A program made the position numbers and the translations under genes. A DNA stretch of 21,194 nt from an uncultured Eubacterium sp. (lineage in GTDB: Bacteria > Bacillota > Clostridia > Lachnospirales > Lachnospiraceae). Below the pieces are notes generated by a model that saw only the letters and a list, made by a program, of their open reading frames with translations, was not told the DNA's origin and made no database searches. Shown in pieces: positions 2,675-10,599 of the stretch; position 1 is the first letter of the stretch; the number at the start of each line of letters is the position of its first letter. The DNA lies in the NCBI GenBank assembly GCA_934317205.1, contig CAKREL010000036.1, positions 1 through 21,194 on the forward strand, given 5' to 3'.

Positions 2675-3106
2675 TTACTGTACGATTCCGCATTCCAGAC
2701 ATTCTTTTCCAATGAGCTGCACTGCATAGCGCTCCAGTTTGATACAGTCCGCTTTTGGGGCTCTTTTTCTTGTTTTTCCTAACATATAACACAGATATAC
2801 TTTTCCAATGGTTATATTTTTATTTTGAAAACGAAATCCATATCGCTCCGGATGCTCAATCGCATCGCAAAATCTGGCATAACACTTTGCATCTGCCCGC
2901 AGGGTTTCTCCGGCATTCTCATAAATCTGTCCTACCATACGGCTCATGCCATCCACATAGCATTCTACAAATTCATCATCTGTCAGTTTTTCCTGCTCTG
3001 CATGCTCCAGCTTTTCCCTTACTGCCTCACCAAACAGATGGATGCTCTGGTCGATAAGATCTACAAAATACTGATACGTGTTTTCCTTTTTTGATGCGAA
3101 TATCAT
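2675..3106 (-). CDS. Hypothetical 143-residue protein, last gene of the HMG-CoA operon
   Basis: I do not recognise this protein. It is predicted soluble and mostly helical, without a signal peptide or membrane segment, and has four cysteines, two of them near the C-terminus (KECLECGIV). The N-terminus (MIFASKKENTYQYFVDLIDQ) faintly recalls the segment after the DNA-binding helices of TetR proteins, so it could be a TetR-type ligand domain lacking its DNA-binding part; that is only a guess. The start at 3106 follows GAGGAGG (about 3112-3118). It lies 87 bases after the permease stop on the same strand, separated by a stem-loop, and its transcript probably ends at 2417-2448. It may be cotranscribed with the permease and reductase genes. 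Confidence 0.7.
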   Translation of the reverse strand: MIFASKKENTYQYFVDLIDQSIHLFGEAVREKLEHAEQEKLTDDEFVECYVDGMSRMVGQIYENAGETLRADAKCYARFCDAIEHPERYGFRFQNKNITIGKVYLCYMLGKTRKRAPKADCIKLERYAVQLIGKECLECGIVQ

Positions 3107-3135
3107 AGTGTGCCTCCTCATACTTCTTCTTTTTA

Positions 3136-3205
3136 CTGGCAATTTTTATGTCAGGACTACATATCCAAAATTACATGTAGCCCTGATTTATTTTTATATT
3201 GCCAG
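3136..3205. other. Stem-loop between permease gene and the last operon gene
   Basis: TCAGGACTACAT (3151-3162) pairs with ATGTAGCCCTGA (3175-3186) over 12 positions, one of them a wobble. CTGGCAAT (3136-3143) and ATTGCCAG (3198-3205) form an outer 8-bp stem that overlaps the permease stop codon. In the minus-strand transcript no U-run follows, so it is not a standard terminator. An mRNA processing or stability element, or a partial attenuator that lowers expression of the distal gene, would fit. Confidence 0.5.
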
Positions 3206-4534
3206 TGCACAAACTGAAATCAGTGTTGTTACGATCCAGCCAGATGCATAATATGCCATAAACTGTACACCGGTATGGATTCCATAGTGGTTGTTTAAGA
3301 ATCCACCAAATACACCGATTACCAGTGCAGTGATAATACCGAATAAACCTGCCTCATGGAAAGCCAGCATGCAGACCAGTCCCATAAATGCGCCGATCAG
3401 TGCCTCATGACTGATGGAACGGAACATCTTTTCAGACCACTTACGGGCTTTTTTGATTGCCATCGGATATGCAAACAGACAACCGAAGATAATACCGATA
3501 AATCCATAAATGAAGTAATCTGACATGGACAGATAATCATGCAAATTAATCTGGTTGAATAACGGAGATGCCGGTCCTAAAGCTACCGGACTCAATGGCA
3601 GACCAAATGCGATCATCGGGATCAGAAGTTCTCCCAGATACGTTGCATTGGATACCGCATCCTGTACACCAAGGGTTGTGGTGACACGGTCAAATAACTC
3701 TTTCTTTCTGGAGGCTACCAGCTCGCCAAGCATAACGGTCATACCAACCGGGGAAAATGTAAATGTGCAGGCTGAAATTGCAGAACAGCCGGCAACGTAA
3801 CCTATGGATGATTTACCAAAAAATTTAAACGGGTTCGGGAAAAACGGCATCTTCTCTTTGGAGTCCGGCGCAAGCCAGATTTCTGTCGGTTTTTCCCTTC
3901 GGTTCTCCGCACGTTTTGCAGGAATCATAATATTGAAGATTTCTGCGATCATCGGGCCAATAGTAATTCCCATGAAAATAGATGTAAATAATGTCTTACC
4001 TACTGCCTCTGTGGAAATTCTCTGTAAGCCCTGAATCAGGAATGCAAACGGTACCAGTGCTACCACTGCTCCGATCTTTGCCTGTGACATAAATGCGATA
4101 ACGCATGCCGCAATGGTAAAAATCAGTCCGCTGTACTGTGTGATAATATCACTTAACGGTGCCAGAATCTGTGCAAACAGAATGGCGATCGGCAAACCGA
4201 TCAAGGATCCGATCATGGAACCTGCGGACATTTTACGCATGGAAATATGCGGAATACCAAGTTTTTTACCGATGTTACTGTTTTCTACCATCGGCACTGC
4301 CATGGTGGAACCCGGAAGGGCCGCCATTGCTGTCGGTATTGTATGTGTAATCTGCATTGCAACCAGAATTGCGATAAACCATGCAAAAATAACAACCGGT
4401 TCAAATCCCATTAAAACAAGAATCAATGTAATCGGTGCCATGGTCGCTGTCTCGTCTGTACCAGGGATAATTCCGATAATAGAGAAGATGATTCCTCCGA
4501 TAATTGAAACAATAATTGCCTGTATAATCAGCAT
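3194..4534 (-). CDS. tctA: TctA-like permease (tripartite tricarboxylate transporter large subunit family)
   Basis: A 446-residue integral membrane protein with about ten to eleven hydrophobic segments. Two glycine/proline loops in the N-terminal half, GIIPGTDET (about 21-29) and AALPGSTMAVPMVEN (about 71-85), resemble the two signature regions of TctA permeases, which carry carboxylates such as citrate with a small subunit TctB and a periplasmic binding protein TctC. It is shorter than the usual length of roughly 500 residues. The start at 4534 follows AGGAGG in the 12-base gap after the preceding gene, so the two are probably translationally coupled. No TctC-like binding protein is nearby. 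Its position beside the HMG-CoA reductase gene suggests import of a branched hydroxy acid such as mevalonate or hydroxymethylglutarate; this substrate is inferred. Confidence 0.8.
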   Translation of the reverse strand: MLIIQAIIVSIIGGIIFSIIGIIPGTDETATMAPITLILVLMGFEPVVIFAWFIAILVAMQITHTIPTAMAALPGSTMAVPMVENSNIGKKLGIPHISMRKMSAGSMIGSLIGLPIAILFAQILAPLSDIITQYSGLIFTIAACVIAFMSQAKIGAVVALVPFAFLIQGLQRISTEAVGKTLFTSIFMGITIGPMIAEIFNIMIPAKRAENRREKPTEIWLAPDSKEKMPFFPNPFKFFGKSSIGYVAGCSAISACTFTFSPVGMTVMLGELVASRKKELFDRVTTTLGVQDAVSNATYLGELLIPMIAFGLPLSPVALGPASPLFNQINLHDYLSMSDYFIYGFIGIIFGCLFAYPMAIKKARKWSEKMFRSISHEALIGAFMGLVCMLAFHEAGLFGIITALVIGVFGGFLNNHYGIHTGVQFMAYYASGWIVTTLISVCALAI

Positions 4535-4546
4535 GTTGTCTACCTC

Positions 4547-5029
4547 CTATGCATCTTTTTTGCTCTGACCTCCCGCCAGTTCTCTGTATTCCGGTTTGTA
4601 ATTGTTTGCACCTTCCGGAATCAGAGCCAGCAGACCGTACAGTTCCAGATCTTCCAGTTCTTTGATCACATCCGGTCCGACTTTTGTCAGTGCCTCGCCT
4701 TCCTCTTCCGGTGTCATATGTGCGTATTCCAATACTTCCGCAATATCGGTCGTACTGTCAAGCTCCGCAACAAGACGTTTCGGTCGGAAGGATTTCGCAG
4801 AGATCACGGCTGCAATAAAGCAGCCGGCAATCCCTATAAAAAGAGCATATCCTTTCGCAAGATTCTCTTCAATCGTTCCCATACTCATGAAGATCTTACG
4901 TCCGATCAGGTAGAAAACCATTGTAAAAATGACCCCTAAGATAATGGATATCGCCAATTCCTTGATATTAACGGTATCTCCCCATACTTCCGTCAACACT
5001 TTCTGTTTTTTCTCAGGTTCAGTATTCAT
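4547..5029 (-). CDS. Small two-helix membrane protein, probable partner of the TctA-like permease
   Basis: A 160-residue protein with a charged N-terminus, two hydrophobic segments (about residues 24-45 and 60-80) and a cytoplasm-type acidic C-terminal half rich in Glu and Asp. I cannot place it in a named family. TctB subunits typically have four membrane helices, so if this is the small subunit it is a reduced or unrelated one. The start at 5029 follows AGGAGG at a good distance. It ends 12 bases before the permease start, and the permease ribosome binding site abuts its stop codon, which argues for a two-protein complex made in matched amounts. Confidence 0.75.
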   Translation of the reverse strand: MNTEPEKKQKVLTEVWGDTVNIKELAISIILGVIFTMVFYLIGRKIFMSMGTIEENLAKGYALFIGIAGCFIAAVISAKSFRPKRLVAELDSTTDIAEVLEYAHMTPEEEGEALTKVGPDVIKELEDLELYGLLALIPEGANNYKPEYRELAGGQSKKDA

Positions 5030-5077
5030 AAATACGCTCCTCCTGTATGTTCTGTTTTATTTTAAATGTGTCATATA

Positions 5078-6340
5078 TTATTTGTTATATTTTTCAAACA
5101 GCTCCTGTGCATATTCCAGACGAACTTTTTTCTCAGAAACCATCTGTTTTACGATTGCTTCCAGAACTTCGCCTTTTGCGCCTACGGTAGAAGCCAGATT
5201 TCTTGCATGCAGTGACATATGTCCTCTCTGGATGCCTTCTGTAGCAAGTGCTTTCATCGCTGCCATGTTATTTGCCAGACCTACTGCTGCAATGATCTGT
5301 CCCAATTCAGCTGCTGTCTTGATGCCAAGCATCTTTACGGCTACCTGTGCCGTCGGATGGATTTTAGTCGCTCCACCTACTAATCCAACAGCCATCGGCA
5401 TTTCAATCGTTCCAACCAGATCACCGTTTGCATCTTTCTCCCAGGTTGTCAGGGAAGTATATCTGCCATTTCTGCTTGCATAAGCATGTGCGCCTGACTC
5501 AATGGCACGGGTATCGTTTCCTGTTGCCAGAACAACCGGGATAATTCCGTTCATAATACCTTTATTATGTGTTGCTGCACGATACGGATCTGCTGCTGCA
5601 AATGCATATGCGTTCAACATCTTATCTACTACTTCTTCGCCGCCGATTGCCTCTTTTTTAAATACGGCACGGGCTGTTACCAGTCTGTGATCTGCAAGGT
5701 TGGATAAAATACGAAGTTCTGCGGTTCCTCCGGTGATTTCCTCCAGGTACGGTGCTACTGCTTCTGCCATTGTATTAACCGCGTTTGCACCCATAGCATC
5801 TAAAGTATCAACCAGCAGATGAACGATTACCATTGGGCCAACCATGGAATCAATGACACGTACTTCTACGTCTCTTGCTCCGCCGCCAAATTTCACAAGT
5901 ACTGGATCTTTCTCATTACACTTCTGGATAATCTCATCTTTGTGCTCCAGGATCATGCTCTTTGCTGCAAATGGTGTCGGAACATTCAAAAGCTGAATCT
6001 GGGAGATCATAACTGTTCCAGAAGAATGTGTCGTAAATCCACCGCCAACGCGCGCCATTTTTGCTGCGTTTGTGCAGGCTGCAACTACGGAAGGCTCCTC
6101 GGAAACCATCGGGATAACATAATCTTTGCCGTTAATCTGGAAGTTGATTGCCACACCAAGAGGAAGTGCAAAACGTCCGATTACGTTCTCGATCATATGA
6201 TCCGCTTTGTCCATATCCAGACTGTCTGCATCCTGCAGCACTTTCTGATCTTCTTCTGTCAGGTTTGCAAACTCTGCAACCTCTTTCATTCTGTCCTCAA
6301 CTGATAATTTGAAAAATCCTGAATATTTACTTGTTTTCAT
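5078..6340 (-). CDS. mvaA: Class II (degradative) hydroxymethylglutaryl-CoA reductase
   Basis: A 420-residue cytoplasmic enzyme interconverting mevalonate and HMG-CoA. The sequence recalls Pseudomonas mevalonii HMG-CoA reductase along its whole length. The four catalytic residues are present: Glu82 (SEEPSVVAA), Lys260 (THNKGIMNG), Asp276 (ATGND) and His374 (QRGHMSLHARN). Asp145 matches the Pseudomonas Asp146 tied to NAD(H) preference. Other class II landmarks are DAMGANAVNTMAE (181-193) and GGGARDVEV. Class II enzymes are catabolic in P. mevalonii but biosynthetic in some Gram-positive cocci. Here the neighbour is a lyase-like gene, with no HMG-CoA synthase or mevalonate kinase in the window, which favours mevalonate oxidation. 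The start at 6340 follows AAAGGAG; the ATG at 6364 has no comparable site. Confidence 0.93.
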   Translation of the reverse strand: MKTSKYSGFFKLSVEDRMKEVAEFANLTEEDQKVLQDADSLDMDKADHMIENVIGRFALPLGVAINFQINGKDYVIPMVSEEPSVVAACTNAAKMARVGGGFTTHSSGTVMISQIQLLNVPTPFAAKSMILEHKDEIIQKCNEKDPVLVKFGGGARDVEVRVIDSMVGPMVIVHLLVDTLDAMGANAVNTMAEAVAPYLEEITGGTAELRILSNLADHRLVTARAVFKKEAIGGEEVVDKMLNAYAFAAADPYRAATHNKGIMNGIIPVVLATGNDTRAIESGAHAYASRNGRYTSLTTWEKDANGDLVGTIEMPMAVGLVGGATKIHPTAQVAVKMLGIKTAAELGQIIAAVGLANNMAAMKALATEGIQRGHMSLHARNLASTVGAKGEVLEAIVKQMVSEKKVRLEYAQELFEKYNK

Positions 6341-6448
6341 TGTCTTGTTCTCCTTTACCCTCACCGATACAAATTACTGATGTATTTCTCTCTATCGTTT
6401 CTAAAATTAATAAATTATTTGCTGTTTCTAATCTCTTTTTTTAACACA

Positions 6449-7411
6449 CTATCGAATGGAACTTGTGAATGAGCTTAATTCTCTTCCCAGAATACGTTCT
6501 ACCATCGTTGCTATTTTATAACATTTCTGTTCATCAATACCAGTCTCGATTCCCATCTGATTCAGCATTGTCACAAAATCACAGGTTTCTACCAGACCGG
6601 TTCTACGTGTGTCAAAATAGTAATCTCCGATACCTTTTACCGGAACATTATCAACAATGTTTGCCACCTGACCACCGATACCACCCATGGAGCAGTCAAA
6701 CATTGTCACACCGGCTTCCATTGCTGCATAATAAGCAGTCAACCCCATGCCTCTGATATCATGTACATGGAAACTATGTGCGGATGTATCCGGATATTTG
6801 TCCAATACAGTAGAAAAATATTCAAATACTTTTGCCGGATCTGCAATTCCATCCGGATCGGAATGCTCGATCTCATCAAATCCGATATCAAAACATCTGT
6901 CACAGAATTCATATGCCTTTTCCAATGGCACTTCACCCTGAATCGGACAGCCGAAAATGGTACCGATGTTTGCAAATACTTTTTTTACTCCATGATCATG
7001 TAAAAACTTTACATTCTTTTCTGCTTCTGCAAACAGTTCTTCGTGTGTGCGGTTCATATTTTTTCTTGCATATGCTTCACTGGTTGCAAGCTGTCCACAT
7101 AATACACGATCAATCTGTGCCCCATCTTCCAACGCCTGAATCGTACGCTCACATGCTTTTGTATTTAATGCCAGTACGGTATACTCTACATTTTCATTCT
7201 TCGGCAGACCTTTCAGAACCGCCTCGATATCTTTAAACTGCGGAACATATTTGATATGACTGAATGTTCCGACTTCAAACTTGGTAAATCCCGCATCAAT
7301 CAGTTTATTTGCAATCCAGAGCTTTGCTTCTGTCGGGACAAACATTTCCTCATGCTGGAAACCATCTCTTAAAGTAACATCCATCACTTCCACTTTTTTT
7401 GGTAGTTTCAT
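6449..7411 (-). CDS. HMG-CoA lyase-like DRE-TIM metalloenzyme with altered active site
   Basis: A 320-residue TIM-barrel protein of the HMGL-like family. The DRE motif region is clear (DVTLRDGFQ, Arg15, Asp16, Gln19), and so is the metal pair HVHD (His215, His217). Alignment by eye with human HMG-CoA lyase places the C-terminal loop at GGIGGQVAN (243-251). The catalytic Cys266 becomes Gln248, Asn275 becomes Leu273 and Glu279 becomes Cys277, and there is an insertion of about 16 residues. The GIGGQVAN pattern is closer to the GLGERAGN loop of isopropylmalate and homocitrate synthases or to aldolase loops. HMG-CoA cleavage is therefore uncertain; another Claisen-type or aldol cleavage is possible. 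It is the first gene after the sigma-54 promoter, with AAGGAG before the ATG. The reductase gene follows 108 bases later. Confidence 0.85.
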   Translation of the reverse strand: MKLPKKVEVMDVTLRDGFQHEEMFVPTEAKLWIANKLIDAGFTKFEVGTFSHIKYVPQFKDIEAVLKGLPKNENVEYTVLALNTKACERTIQALEDGAQIDRVLCGQLATSEAYARKNMNRTHEELFAEAEKNVKFLHDHGVKKVFANIGTIFGCPIQGEVPLEKAYEFCDRCFDIGFDEIEHSDPDGIADPAKVFEYFSTVLDKYPDTSAHSFHVHDIRGMGLTAYYAAMEAGVTMFDCSMGGIGGQVANIVDNVPVKGIGDYYFDTRRTGLVETCDFVTMLNQMGIETGIDEQKCYKIATMVERILGRELSSFTSSIR

Positions 7412-7459
7412 CTGTTCTTCTCCTTTTCTATCTTCCTGCAGGTTTGTGACCTATTATAT

Positions 7460-7475
7460 TGCAAAGCCGATGCCA
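7460..7475 (-). promoter_or_regulatory. Sigma-54 (-24/-12) promoter of the HMG-CoA operon
   Basis: On the minus strand the sequence TGGCATCGGCTTTGCA matches the sigma-54 consensus TGGCAC-N5-TTGCW at all conserved positions except C to T at the sixth base, with correct GG-to-GC spacing. A transcript would begin near 7450, leaving a leader of about 38 bases before the ATG at 7411. A sigma-54 activator is encoded directly upstream. Confidence 0.8.
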
Positions 7476-7579
7476 GTTTTACGACTGTATCTTGAAAATT
7501 TGTAAATCCTTCTCGTTTATGCTTATTTTATTTCAAAAAAAAGCAAATTTCATATCGTTTTCCCTGTTTTTTACGATAG

Positions 7580-7612
7580 AAAAAGGATATGACCATTCCA
7601 TCATATCCCTTT
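7580..7612 (-). terminator. Terminator of the sigma-54 regulator gene
   Basis: On the minus strand GGATATGA and TCATATCC form an 8-bp stem with an 8-base loop, extended by AAA/TTT with one bulged base, and the 3' side runs into TTTTT. It separates the regulator transcript from the sigma-54 promoter downstream. Confidence 0.72.
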
Positions 7613-7635
7613 CAAACTATGTTTTGTTTTAAATA

Positions 7636-7703
7636 GTGCCGTTTTTGGCACTCTTTTTTCTATACTTCTGTGTCACATTTGGCACGTTTGTCATTTTTGG
7701 CAC
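7636..7703. promoter_or_regulatory. Three repeated sites, putative activator-binding (UAS) cluster
   Basis: Three 16-bp sites share the form TG(C/T)C-N6-GGCAC. Site 1 (7636-7651) is a perfect palindrome, GTGCC-6-GGCAC, within AGTGCC/GGCACT. Site 2 (7670-7685) reads GTGTCACATTTGGCAC and site 3 (7688-7703) reads TTGTCATTTTTGGCAC. They lie about 195, 229 and 247 bases upstream of the predicted sigma-54 start, in the usual range for enhancer-like sites bound by bacterial enhancer-binding proteins. The adjacent regulator gene product is the likely ligand. Confidence 0.68.
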
Positions 7704-7735
7704 TTTTGATATTCCTTATATCAGCCTTTTCCGAC

Positions 7736-9319
7736 TCAGGACAATTCATAATCTGACAGTTTCCGATAAAAAGTTCTTCTGGAAACCTTTAATTCCTGAA
7801 TCACGGCATTGCGATCCCCATGGCAACGATCCAGTGCAGCCGCAATCACATGTTTCTCATAAGCCTCCATCTGCTCCTTCAAGCTATCAAACTGCATGCC
7901 GTCCTCCAGCAGAGAAAATTTATCCGCCTTTTTTTCCTGCTGCACGGTTTCTCTCGCAGCAACACCGGAAATATGCTCCGGTAAATCTCCCGCACCAATG
8001 GAATCCGATATCGTCAGCACCACTGCGCTTTCCACCACATTTCGCAGTTCCCGGACATTTCCCGGCCATTTATAATTCATCAGTGCCTGATACGCACTTT
8101 CTTTCAGATGTTTTTCTTTCTGGTATTTACGATTAAACGTATCCAGAAATTCATTTGCCAGCAATATAACGTCACTGCCACGTTTTCTGAGAGGCGGTAT
8201 CTCAATGGAAATAACGTTCAGTCGGTAATACAGATCCATACGAAAACTTCCATCCTCGATCATCTGCTCCAGCGGCTGATTTGTTGCCGCGATCACACGT
8301 ACGTCAATTGGAACGCTTTTTTGTCCACCGACTTTTTCAATCTCACCTTCCTGAAGTACACGCAGTAATTTTGCCTGCATGGCCATCGGCAGATCGCCGA
8401 TCTCATCCAGAAAAATAGTTCCACCGTGAGCCAGTTCAAATTTTCCGGCTCGTCCTCCTTTTTTTGCCCCGGTAAATGAACCTTCCTCATAACCAAACAA
8501 TTCACTCTCAATCAATGCTTCCGGAATTGCAGCACAGTTTACCTTAATGAATGGCTGATTCATTCTGGCACTGTTTTCCTGTATGATCTTACAGATGACT
8601 TCTTTACCGGTTCCGTTCTCACCACGAATCAATACCGATGCATCCGTAGATGCCACCATCATCGCTTTTCGGATACAGTTTAGATACACTTCGCTCTCTC
8701 CGATAATATGATTCGTTTTCAAAAAATCTCTGGCACGGATTTCCTGATTGTATTCTTCTGCCACCTGAGAAATACGCTGCACCTCACTTGTCAGATGGTT
8801 CAGTTCCGTAATATCCGTAAATAATGAACATGCTCCAATGAACTCTCCATGTCGATACAATGGAAACATATTTACCGACACATATTTCTGAACGGATTGA
8901 ATCAGCTGTTTTTCCCGACGTTTTGGCTGCTGTGTCTCCAGTACTTCCAAAAGTGCTGCATCTTTTTCAATCTGATTCATATAACGACCGATAATCTTAC
9001 CCGGTGCGACATTCAAAATATCTGAATACGCAGGATTTACATAAAAAATCCGACTTTCTTTATCCACTGCTATGACACCAATATTCAAATGTTCCAGAAT
9101 CTGCGCCATATCCATTGATTGATTCCATTGATAGATAAAACGAAGCCTCTCCGACTGAATGGCTCCCAGCATTTCGCCATTTTCATCCACAATACCAATA
9201 TATTTTTCTTCTGTATTTAGTACACGCTGATCAATATCCCTAATTCGAATTGCTGCCGGAAGAAAACTCTTTGTCTCTACATTTTTTCGGTTCGGGTTCA
9301 TAAAACGTGCAATTTCCAT
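7736..9319 (-). CDS. Sigma-54-dependent transcriptional activator (PAS, AAA+, Fis-type HTH)
   Basis: A 527-residue bacterial enhancer-binding protein. The N-terminal 60 residues contain a stretch resembling half a CBS motif (YIGIVDENGEMLGAI, 40-54). A PAS sensor domain spans about 72-175. The AAA+ domain (about 205-440) shows Walker A GENGTGKE (233-240), the sigma-54 contact loop as GSFTGA (280-285) instead of the more common GAFTGA, Walker B GGTIFLDEIG (299-308) and the conserved WPGNVREL (418-425). A Fis-type helix-turn-helix closes the protein (about 496-522). There is no receiver domain, so it probably senses a small molecule, plausibly the operon's substrate. It precedes the HMG-CoA operon on the same strand, and the sites at 7636-7703 are its likely targets. 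A GGTGGGG sequence precedes the ATG at 9319. Confidence 0.92.
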   Translation of the reverse strand: MEIARFMNPNRKNVETKSFLPAAIRIRDIDQRVLNTEEKYIGIVDENGEMLGAIQSERLRFIYQWNQSMDMAQILEHLNIGVIAVDKESRIFYVNPAYSDILNVAPGKIIGRYMNQIEKDAALLEVLETQQPKRREKQLIQSVQKYVSVNMFPLYRHGEFIGACSLFTDITELNHLTSEVQRISQVAEEYNQEIRARDFLKTNHIIGESEVYLNCIRKAMMVASTDASVLIRGENGTGKEVICKIIQENSARMNQPFIKVNCAAIPEALIESELFGYEEGSFTGAKKGGRAGKFELAHGGTIFLDEIGDLPMAMQAKLLRVLQEGEIEKVGGQKSVPIDVRVIAATNQPLEQMIEDGSFRMDLYYRLNVISIEIPPLRKRGSDVILLANEFLDTFNRKYQKEKHLKESAYQALMNYKWPGNVRELRNVVESAVVLTISDSIGAGDLPEHISGVAARETVQQEKKADKFSLLEDGMQFDSLKEQMEAYEKHVIAAALDRCHGDRNAVIQELKVSRRTFYRKLSDYELS

Positions 9320-9420
9320 TGTTCCCCACCAACTTTCTATCTTCTGCCTTATCCTTTACAACACAGCTAACATCATTTTTCCTCTATGTCATTTCTCCAC
9401 AGTCACACTATTAACTGCTT

Positions 9421-10599
9421 CTACCACAACTTCAACAGCCGTATTGCTTTCCCTGCCAGCTTATACGTCACATTTTCCAGTTCTTTCGAAGCATGTTTCA
9501 GTTCTTCACGAATCGGAATCCCCTGCGGACAGTGCTGCTCACATTTGCCACATCCCACACACTGGGAAGCGCTGGTCGGCGTCTGCCGGAAAATCGTACA
9601 CTGCATATATCCCTTCCGCGCCGTCTTTTTATTCTCACTGTAGATCAGATTATAAAAACTGAACGTGCCCGGGATATCCACATTTTTCGGACATGGCATA
9701 CAATAACCGCAGCCGGTACAGCCTACTTTCATGCTGTGATTGATTGCATCCTTTAACTCATTGACAAACGCTGTCTCTTTCTCTGTAAAGGCTCCTGCCC
9801 GGGTTTCTGACGCGATCCGGCAATTTTCCCGCACCATCTCAATAGAATTCATGCCGGAAAGTACCGTTGTGACTTCCGACTGATTCCAGAGCCAGCGAAA
9901 TGCCCATTCTGCTGCACTGCGTCCGGATGGATGTGCTGCCACCTTCCGTTTTGCTTCTTCCGGTAACAGATTTACCAGTTTGCCTCCCCGCAGCGGCTCC
10001 ATGATCATCACAGGCAGCCCCTTTGCGGCAGCATACTGTAATCCTTTCCGTCCAGCCTGACTGTTTTCGTCCAGATAATTATACTGGATCATACAGAAAT
10101 CCCAGTCATAGGCATCCACCAGTTCACAAAAATCTTTGGTATTTCCATGATAGGAAAAACCAATTCGGTGGATCTCTCCGGACGCTTTCTTCTTTGTAAT
10201 CCATTCTTTAATGCCAAGGCCTTTTAATTTTTCCCATGTTTCCAGATTCGTCAACATGTGCATCAGATAAAAATCAATGTAATTTGTACGTAATCTGCGC
10301 AGCTGCTCCTGAAAGGTCTTTTCCAGACCTGCTGCGGACTTGATCAGATAATGCGGCAGTTTATCTGCAATGTAAATCTGTTCCCTGCAGTGATTTTTTT
10401 CAAAAATCTTTCCCATGGCCTCTTCACTGCCGCTGTAAATATATGCGGTATCAAAATAATTAACCCCGAGTTTCATGGCCTCCAGAATCTCAGATTCCGC
10501 TTTTTCCAGGTTGATCTTTCCATTTTCTTTTGTAAAACGCATGCAGCCAAAGGCAAGCATAGAAACCGGATTCTTTTCTTTATCATATCGATATTGCAT
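9421..10599 (-). CDS. Second aldo/keto reductase with C-terminal ferredoxin-like domain
   Basis: A 392-residue predicted cytoplasmic oxidoreductase related to the protein at 352-1473. The aldo/keto reductase tetrad can be read as Asp50 and Tyr55 (FDTAYIYSGSEE), Lys80 (IADKLP) and His114 (YLMHML). Two Fe-S cysteine sets follow: CTGCGYCMPC (Cys294, 297, 300, 303), which has one residue less than the standard spacing before the last cysteine, and CVGCGKCEQHCP (Cys347, 350, 353, 357). The start at 10599 has AGGAG upstream. The acyltransferase gene ends only 15 bases before it, so the two are probably one transcript, which may continue into the sigma-54 regulator gene 101 bases further on. The substrate cannot be inferred. 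Confidence 0.9.
   Translation of the reverse strand: MQYRYDKEKNPVSMLAFGCMRFTKENGKINLEKAESEILEAMKLGVNYFDTAYIYSGSEEAMGKIFEKNHCREQIYIADKLPHYLIKSAAGLEKTFQEQLRRLRTNYIDFYLMHMLTNLETWEKLKGLGIKEWITKKKASGEIHRIGFSYHGNTKDFCELVDAYDWDFCMIQYNYLDENSQAGRKGLQYAAAKGLPVMIMEPLRGGKLVNLLPEEAKRKVAAHPSGRSAAEWAFRWLWNQSEVTTVLSGMNSIEMVRENCRIASETRAGAFTEKETAFVNELKDAINHSMKVGCTGCGYCMPCPKNVDIPGTFSFYNLIYSENKKTARKGYMQCTIFRQTPTSASQCVGCGKCEQHCPQGIPIREELKHASKELENVTYKLAGKAIRLLKLW

Follow-up and report, generated by a model that had tools for sequence, protein, structure and literature searches.

The reductase gene cluster and its conservation

The window analysed here, a 21,194-nucleotide stretch of DNA from an uncultured Eubacterium sp. 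(contig CAKREL010000036.1 of assembly GCA_934317205.1), carries on its minus strand a gene cluster centred on a degradative 3-hydroxy-3-methylglutaryl-coenzyme A (HMG-CoA) reductase (HMGR). In the direction of transcription, the gene of a sigma-54-dependent activator (7736..9319) is followed by a 324-bp gap with dyad repeats and a promoter, and then by genes for an HMG-CoA-lyase-like enzyme of 320 residues (6449..7411), the reductase (5078..6340, 420 residues from its ATG), a membrane protein of 160 residues (4547..5029) and a TctA-family permease of 446 residues (3194..4534; PF01970, 78.8 bits). The last four are separated by 108, 48 and 12 bases, with HMGR counted from the ATG, which is spacing as in an operon. 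Open reading frame (ORF) and Pfam scans place all five genes where an initial annotation of this DNA had them, and its description of a catabolic, sigma-54-controlled and transporter-linked unit agrees with the gene clustering, the promoter and the dyads; on these grounds, the role of the operon is in all likelihood catabolic.

The reductase scores 490 bits against the degradative model TIGR00532 (cut-off 260), and its best match among 17 solved sequences is the Pseudomonas mevalonii enzyme 1qax (487 bits). The ORF opens with GTG at 6364; with numbering that starts at the ATG (6340), Glu82, Asp145, Lys260, Asp276 and His374 align with those of P. mevalonii, exactly as the initial annotation had listed them. 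We take the glutamate, lysine, second aspartate and histidine to be catalytic and Asp145 to select NAD. By family and residues, this is a degradative class II HMG-CoA reductase of the NAD type, predicted to oxidize mevalonate, from which cholesterol is built.

Relatives of the lyase were sought in one genome per species, and the best 80 of 531 were kept as loci. Eight of these (L001-L007 and L011; Lachnospiraceae, Anaerovoracaceae, Oscillospiraceae and unplaced Clostridia) hold a lyase that shares 65% identity or more with that of the window, and HMGR lies in the same cluster in all eight, adjoining the lyase in five and separated from it by the two permease genes in L004-L006. The small membrane protein and TctA are present in five of the eight (L003-L007); they are missing from the two Emergencia loci, and the L001 sequence stops right after HMGR. 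At the 72 remaining loci, where the lyase is 44-48% identical and the hosts, two Bacillota (L051, L053) apart, are largely Bacteroidota and Desulfobacterota-type, HMGR was found at none. The reductase-lyase pairing recurs in three clostridial families, and the module is a real, conserved unit.

Reductases of this type are rare in the clostridial groups sampled. A search with the reductase alone, made in samples from larger groups with the centre genomes included in the tallies, returned 1 of 295 genomes in the closest relative's order (E 1e-100), namely that relative itself, 8 of 197 in the Emergencia family (E 1e-120) and 2 of 295 in the Flavonifractor order (E 1e-120). Seven further genomes came from this search, four with a lyase at the cluster (G372, G387, G475, G669) and three with TctA (G372, G464, G669). 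Eleven genomes have HMGL-like copies at the cluster, and no further HMGL-like match at E 1e-8 was found in them. Carriers of the cluster include Flavonifractor sp. An306 and Emergencia sp. 1XD21-10.

The small membrane protein has two hydrophobic stretches and stands in the place of TctB; its homologues beside TctA in relatives are 39-60% identical (96% in the closest relative), and it has no Pfam match above cut-off. The ORF at 2675-3142 (155 residues), which follows the permease gene and with which the initial annotation began its range, lies outside the conserved unit, since it belongs to no family and is present at only one of the 80 loci, that of the closest relative. The operon is flanked by genes for two aldo/keto reductases with C-terminal 4Fe-4S domains (352-1509 and 9421-10599), each of which matches the L003 copy of the other at 32-34%.

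A lyase of a cysteine-free clade

Known HMG-CoA lyases use a catalytic cysteine in a GGCP loop. The window enzyme belongs to the same family (PF00682), as the initial annotation had said, and has the expected fold, with a predicted model at a pLDDT (predicted local distance difference test) of 93 whose best solved folds are HMG-CoA lyases (template-modelling score 0.87). Overlooked by that annotation was the absence of the cysteine: the loop reads GGIGGQ, is longer than the GGCP loop and has glutamine, Gln248, in the place of cysteine. One alignment comprised the window protein and 18 homologues, with 120 listed out of 625 matches; among the proteins aligned for the motif, GGxGGQ is present in 81 of 81, and so are the RD motif, the HxH pair (His215 and His217 in the window enzyme) and E46. 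The cysteine was read in all nine proteins above the cut-off of NF004283, the model for canonical HMG-CoA lyases, six of which were taken into the tree, where a branch with 100/100 support separates 29 rows from these six, with a warning of long branches. Since the window lyase lacks the cysteine and remains below the NF004283 cut-off (205.6 of 246 bits), it is not a canonical HMG-CoA lyase in the strict sense, its TIM-barrel fold with RD and HxH notwithstanding; it carries instead the loop signature of what we define here as a glutamine clade, GGxGGQxAN...YY. The clade appears widespread, with 254 of 389 genomes of one order matching a member at E <=1e-60, the glutamine motif having been inspected in only a few of them, and it does without the residue taught as catalytic.

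The neighbourhood of more distant members bears on their probable substrate. In 15 of the 72 other loci, the lyase follows within 3 kb an enoyl-CoA hydratase at least 71% identical to that of L075 (itself included), and 11 of these 15 also hold a carboxyltransferase subunit. This arrangement reads as the gene order of leucine and isovalerate degradation, in which the last intermediate is HMG-CoA. For Desulfococcus multivorans, the available text of PMC5109826 describes a gene cluster at 3.20 Mbp and EchA2, Mcc and HmgL formed exclusively in cells adapted to 3-methylbutanoate (isovalerate). At 3.21 Mbp of this genome, we find genes for an acyl-CoA dehydrogenase, a hydratase and a carboxyltransferase (73-83% identical to those of L075) and, directly after them, a lyase with the loop GGLGGQPAN, which by place and neighbours appears to match the reported HmgL. 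A member of the glutamine clade is hence the expressed candidate for the HMG-CoA lyase of the D. multivorans isovalerate pathway, on evidence of expression rather than enzymology, and since this member matches a protein found only in isovalerate-grown cells, the clade probably cleaves HMG-CoA.

Regulation and variants of the module

The activator combines PAS, Sigma54_activat (AAA+) and Fis-type HTH_8 domains; the nearest curated model is PrdR, at 463 of 795 bits far below its cut-off. A sigma-54 promoter of the -24/-12 consensus, TGGCATCGGCTTTGC, lies on the minus strand at 7461..7475, about 50 bp before the lyase start, and three dyads resembling GTGCCA-N4-TGGCAC, the proposed binding sites of the activator, lie further upstream on the same strand (7688-7703, 7670-7685 and 7636-7651, spanning 7636..7703). 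The combination of activator, promoter and sites had been recognized in the initial annotation, and it is conserved in relatives. A -24/-12 site precedes the cluster, at the same place, in 14 of 14 related clostridial loci with upstream DNA present (L004 is cut off); twelve of these sites are strict and two have one base relaxed (L005, L006). In total, 16 sequences (280 kb) contain 20 strict sites, 15 of them at these clusters. As the site recurs before all 14 related clusters, the promoter is not due to chance.

Upstream of the 15 strict sites (from the window and from 12 loci, with a pair of sites at two of the latter), 23 matches to the dyad were counted against 0.12 expected, where a match requires at least 10 of 12 bases within 300 bp upstream of a site and the expectation comes from first-order resampling, not from exact shuffles. 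At least one dyad is present in nine of the 15 regions. Homologues of the activator at the HMGR clusters of relatives are 36-94% identical; one stands beside the cluster in six of the eight loci with a lyase at least 65% identical (L004 being too short to tell), and all seven further genomes found through the reductase have both a homologue and a strict promoter at the cluster. An adjoining activator, a -24/-12 promoter and upstream sites, conserved among relatives, are the marks of a sigma-54 regulon, and the operon bears them; exceptions to the conservation are L001, with no activator nearby, and the six dyad-less regions.

Around the reductase, the composition of the module varies. Emergencia has two copies of the cluster, continued by genes for an amidohydrolase, a Na+/alanine symporter, a family III CoA-transferase and a hydratase (the families were assigned from the first copy, while in the second only transferase and hydratase were matched). 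In the second Emergencia copy (L011:10962-12231), HMGR is in two overlapping pieces in different frames, a broken gene or an assembly error.

In two genomes, AtuA adjoins a degradative HMGR under a sigma-54 promoter (L094:11017-12711 in G464; L097:11757-13211 in G479), accompanied in L094 by an AtuA ferredoxin-like protein and in L097 by Aconitase X (AcnX; 8956-10191), so that HMGR in L097 is flanked by AcnX and AtuA. In G429, a beta-keto acid cleavage enzyme (BKACE; L098:8699-9547) adjoins a more distant HMGR (~53%), again with a sigma-54 promoter. As AtuA stands beside HMGR in G464 and G479, where a search at E 1e-8 gave no HMGL-like match, this arrangement suggests that AtuA may act on HMG-CoA or a near relative, and the module would make AtuA, whose family takes its name from terpene use, accessible to genetics. 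Together, the variants suggest that HMG-CoA, or compounds related to it, meet differing fates in modules that share this reductase.

Proposed pathway, alternatives and known systems

Combining these observations, we propose that the sigma-54-controlled operon likely serves to import mevalonate, oxidize it to HMG-CoA and cleave the latter to acetoacetate and acetyl-CoA. The PAS domain of the activator would sense the substrate or its product, upon which the activator, bound to the GTGCCA-N4-TGGCAC dyads, would fire the -24/-12 promoter. Mevalonate would then enter through TctA together with the small membrane protein, and HMGR, working in the oxidative direction, would convert mevalonate, CoA and two NAD+ to HMG-CoA and two NADH. 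The cysteine-less lyase would split HMG-CoA into acetyl-CoA, a source of acetate and one ATP, and acetoacetate. The latter would receive CoA by transfer and then consume the two NADH on its way to butyrate, which makes acetate plus butyrate the presumed net products of mevalonate.

Mevalonic acid (C6H12O4) has the summed formula of acetic and butyric acid. The closest genome has a 3-oxoacid CoA-transferase pair and a thiolase, with models above cut-off, a gene resembling 3-hydroxybutyryl-CoA dehydrogenase (Hbd; 397 bits, cut-off 408) and, adjoining it, a gene resembling those of acyl-CoA dehydrogenases, truncated where the contig ends. Given this balance and these genes for a C4 route, a redox-neutral fermentation is plausible. 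CoA_trans, 3HCDH_N and Acyl-CoA_dh_N each occur in 13 of 14 cluster-bearing genomes (the small G004 is the exception), but these families are common and their presence proves little.

A run of the route in the opposite direction as an electron sink, offered as an option by the initial annotation, was set aside. HMG-CoA lyases favour cleavage to acetoacetate and acetyl-CoA, and because this direction is the favourable one and HMG-CoA synthase was not found in seven relatives, the reverse is not favoured. These relatives, one with a reductase and lyase 99% identical to those of the window, were checked for isoprenoid enzymes: none of the seven has HMG-CoA synthase or a mevalonate kinase above cut-off, and DXR of the methylerythritol phosphate (MEP) pathway is present in six, the seventh, G004, comprising only 1.4 Mb. 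The case that the initial annotation made against an isoprenoid role is thereby strengthened, no complete biosynthetic mevalonate pathway having appeared in the seven. That the genes are a remnant of the mevalonate pathway, or salvage mevalonate into isoprenoids, we deem very improbable, as the synthase and kinase were not found and DXR is there, and the lyase, permease and sigma-54 context likewise speak against it. The idea draws on class II HMGR being biosynthetic in some Gram-positive bacteria, according to the available text of PMC10070635, and on GHMP-kinase-type matches below cut-off in four of the seven relatives (best 71.7 of 163 bits, in G003).

Two other alternatives concern what enters the pathway and what the lyase cleaves. 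The growth substrate could be 3-hydroxy-3-methylglutarate (HMG), whether free or derived from HMG conjugates of plants, or a different C6 acid entering in the form of a CoA ester, with HMGR making mevalonate to dispose of electrons; TctA-type permeases are generally known to carry carboxylates, and in G387 and both Emergencia loci the reductase-lyase pair is followed by two further genes, one for a CoA-transferase of family III and one for an enoyl-CoA hydratase. We regard this as unlikely for the window operon: a scan of 10 window proteins, those of the operon among them, showed neither a CoA-transferase nor a ligase; a search confined to the family III transferase gave no match in L003 or the Flavonifractor loci; and HMGR run oxidatively needs no separate activation of its substrate. 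Mevalonate is preferred over free HMG because HMGR would make HMG-CoA from it directly and the operon holds no CoA ligase or transferase; of the initial wording, mevalonate or HMG, the former is hence favoured. The lyase, for its part, could act on a different 3-hydroxyacyl-CoA for want of the cysteine, with HMG-CoA going elsewhere, for example by dehydration to 3-methylglutaconyl-CoA, as the longer GGxGGQ loop throughout the clade and the enoyl-CoA hydratase in the Emergencia cluster would allow. We doubt this too, in view of the RD, HxH and E46 residues kept in every aligned protein, the close hydratase and carboxyltransferase genes at the leucine-type loci, the D. multivorans HmgL (same clade, beside carboxylase and hydratase, and in the text available specific to isovalerate-adapted cells), and the absence of a canonical lyase from 6 of 14 leucine-type genomes, one of them a complete chromosome (14 of the 15 loci were covered by this check).

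Several points weigh against the proposed mevalonate pathway. The window lyase is without the catalytic cysteine that known HMG-CoA lyases have; the D. multivorans HmgL is 37% identical to it and sits on a long branch; and the other 8 of the 14 leucine-type genomes also hold a canonical lyase, which weakens the support from leucine context. At four of the 80 loci (L033, L053, L054, L077), a cysteine-type HMGL relative and the glutamine type lie no more than about 2 kb apart, and there the two types may have different substrates; L136, the neighbour lyase of L077, has the cysteine. Where such a relative stands beside it or a canonical lyase co-occurs, the clade may act otherwise. In addition, G464, G479 and G429, in which AtuA or BKACE adjoins HMGR, gave no HMGL-like match at E 1e-8, and L001 has no activator homologue nearby even at E 1e-3.

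Mevalonate catabolism remains the reading we prefer, and the initial annotation is confirmed in its observation and partly supported in its interpretation. Tentatively, and with somewhat less than even confidence, we extend it to gut and other anaerobic Clostridia, which would ferment mevalonate to acetate and butyrate by means of a sigma-54-controlled module built on a reversed HMGR and an HMG-CoA lyase of a second kind that does without the cysteine, with AtuA or BKACE in the same slot of sister modules. If true, gut-type bacteria that obtain isoprenoids from their own MEP pathway would have an anaerobic, fermentative route for mevalonate, and an HMG-CoA reductase, the enzyme that statins target in people, would be driving a reaction in the intestine.

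Among known systems, the tripartite tricarboxylate transporters TctCBA resemble the window in the TctA-family permease with a small membrane protein. The latter differs from TctB in having two hydrophobic stretches and no TctB match, and neither TctB nor TctC has a Pfam match among the 10 window proteins scanned around the permease, so that only the TctA part of such a transporter is recognizable; a sequence search with TctA in the PDB gave no match. Sigma-54 regulons of Clostridiales, in the available text of PMC6615313, likewise have an activator adjoining a catabolic operon, upstream sites and a -24/-12 promoter. The motif given there for 15 groups including PrdR is TGT-N10-12-ACA, in contrast to the GTGCCA-N4-TGGCAC dyad of the window, and that text mentions neither HMG, mevalonate nor tricarboxylate; the text of a wider sigma-54 survey contains none of the HMG or mevalonate terms sought. 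The D. multivorans isovalerate cluster shares with the window an HMG-CoA lyase step assigned to a glutamine-clade member; in the portion of PMC5109826 available, HMG-CoA is made there by carboxylating and hydrating isovaleryl-CoA rather than from mevalonate, and we found no HMGR match in 20 kb around the lyase cluster.

A literature search of open-licence papers found, among the matches listed and in the text available, no mevalonate-catabolic operon in gut Clostridia. The closest parallel is mvaAB of P. mevalonii, an organism that grows on mevalonate alone according to the accessible text of PMC7503714. Both systems have an NAD-type degradative HMGR of the same family beside an enzyme of the HMG-CoA lyase family, with acetoacetate and acetyl-CoA as the presumed products of mevalonate. 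The mvaAB genes are reportedly a mevalonate catabolism system, and MvaB is a lyase of the cysteine type. The window pairing is consequently no simple copy of mvaAB, the parallel drawn in the initial annotation, as its lyase comes from a different, cysteine-less clade; the window operon differs further in its anaerobic-type host, its sigma-54/PAS activator with dyads, its TctA permease and its putative fermentative end. The operon probably uses mevalonate as P. mevalonii does, and what would be new relative to that system is the unusual lyase and the anaerobic setting.

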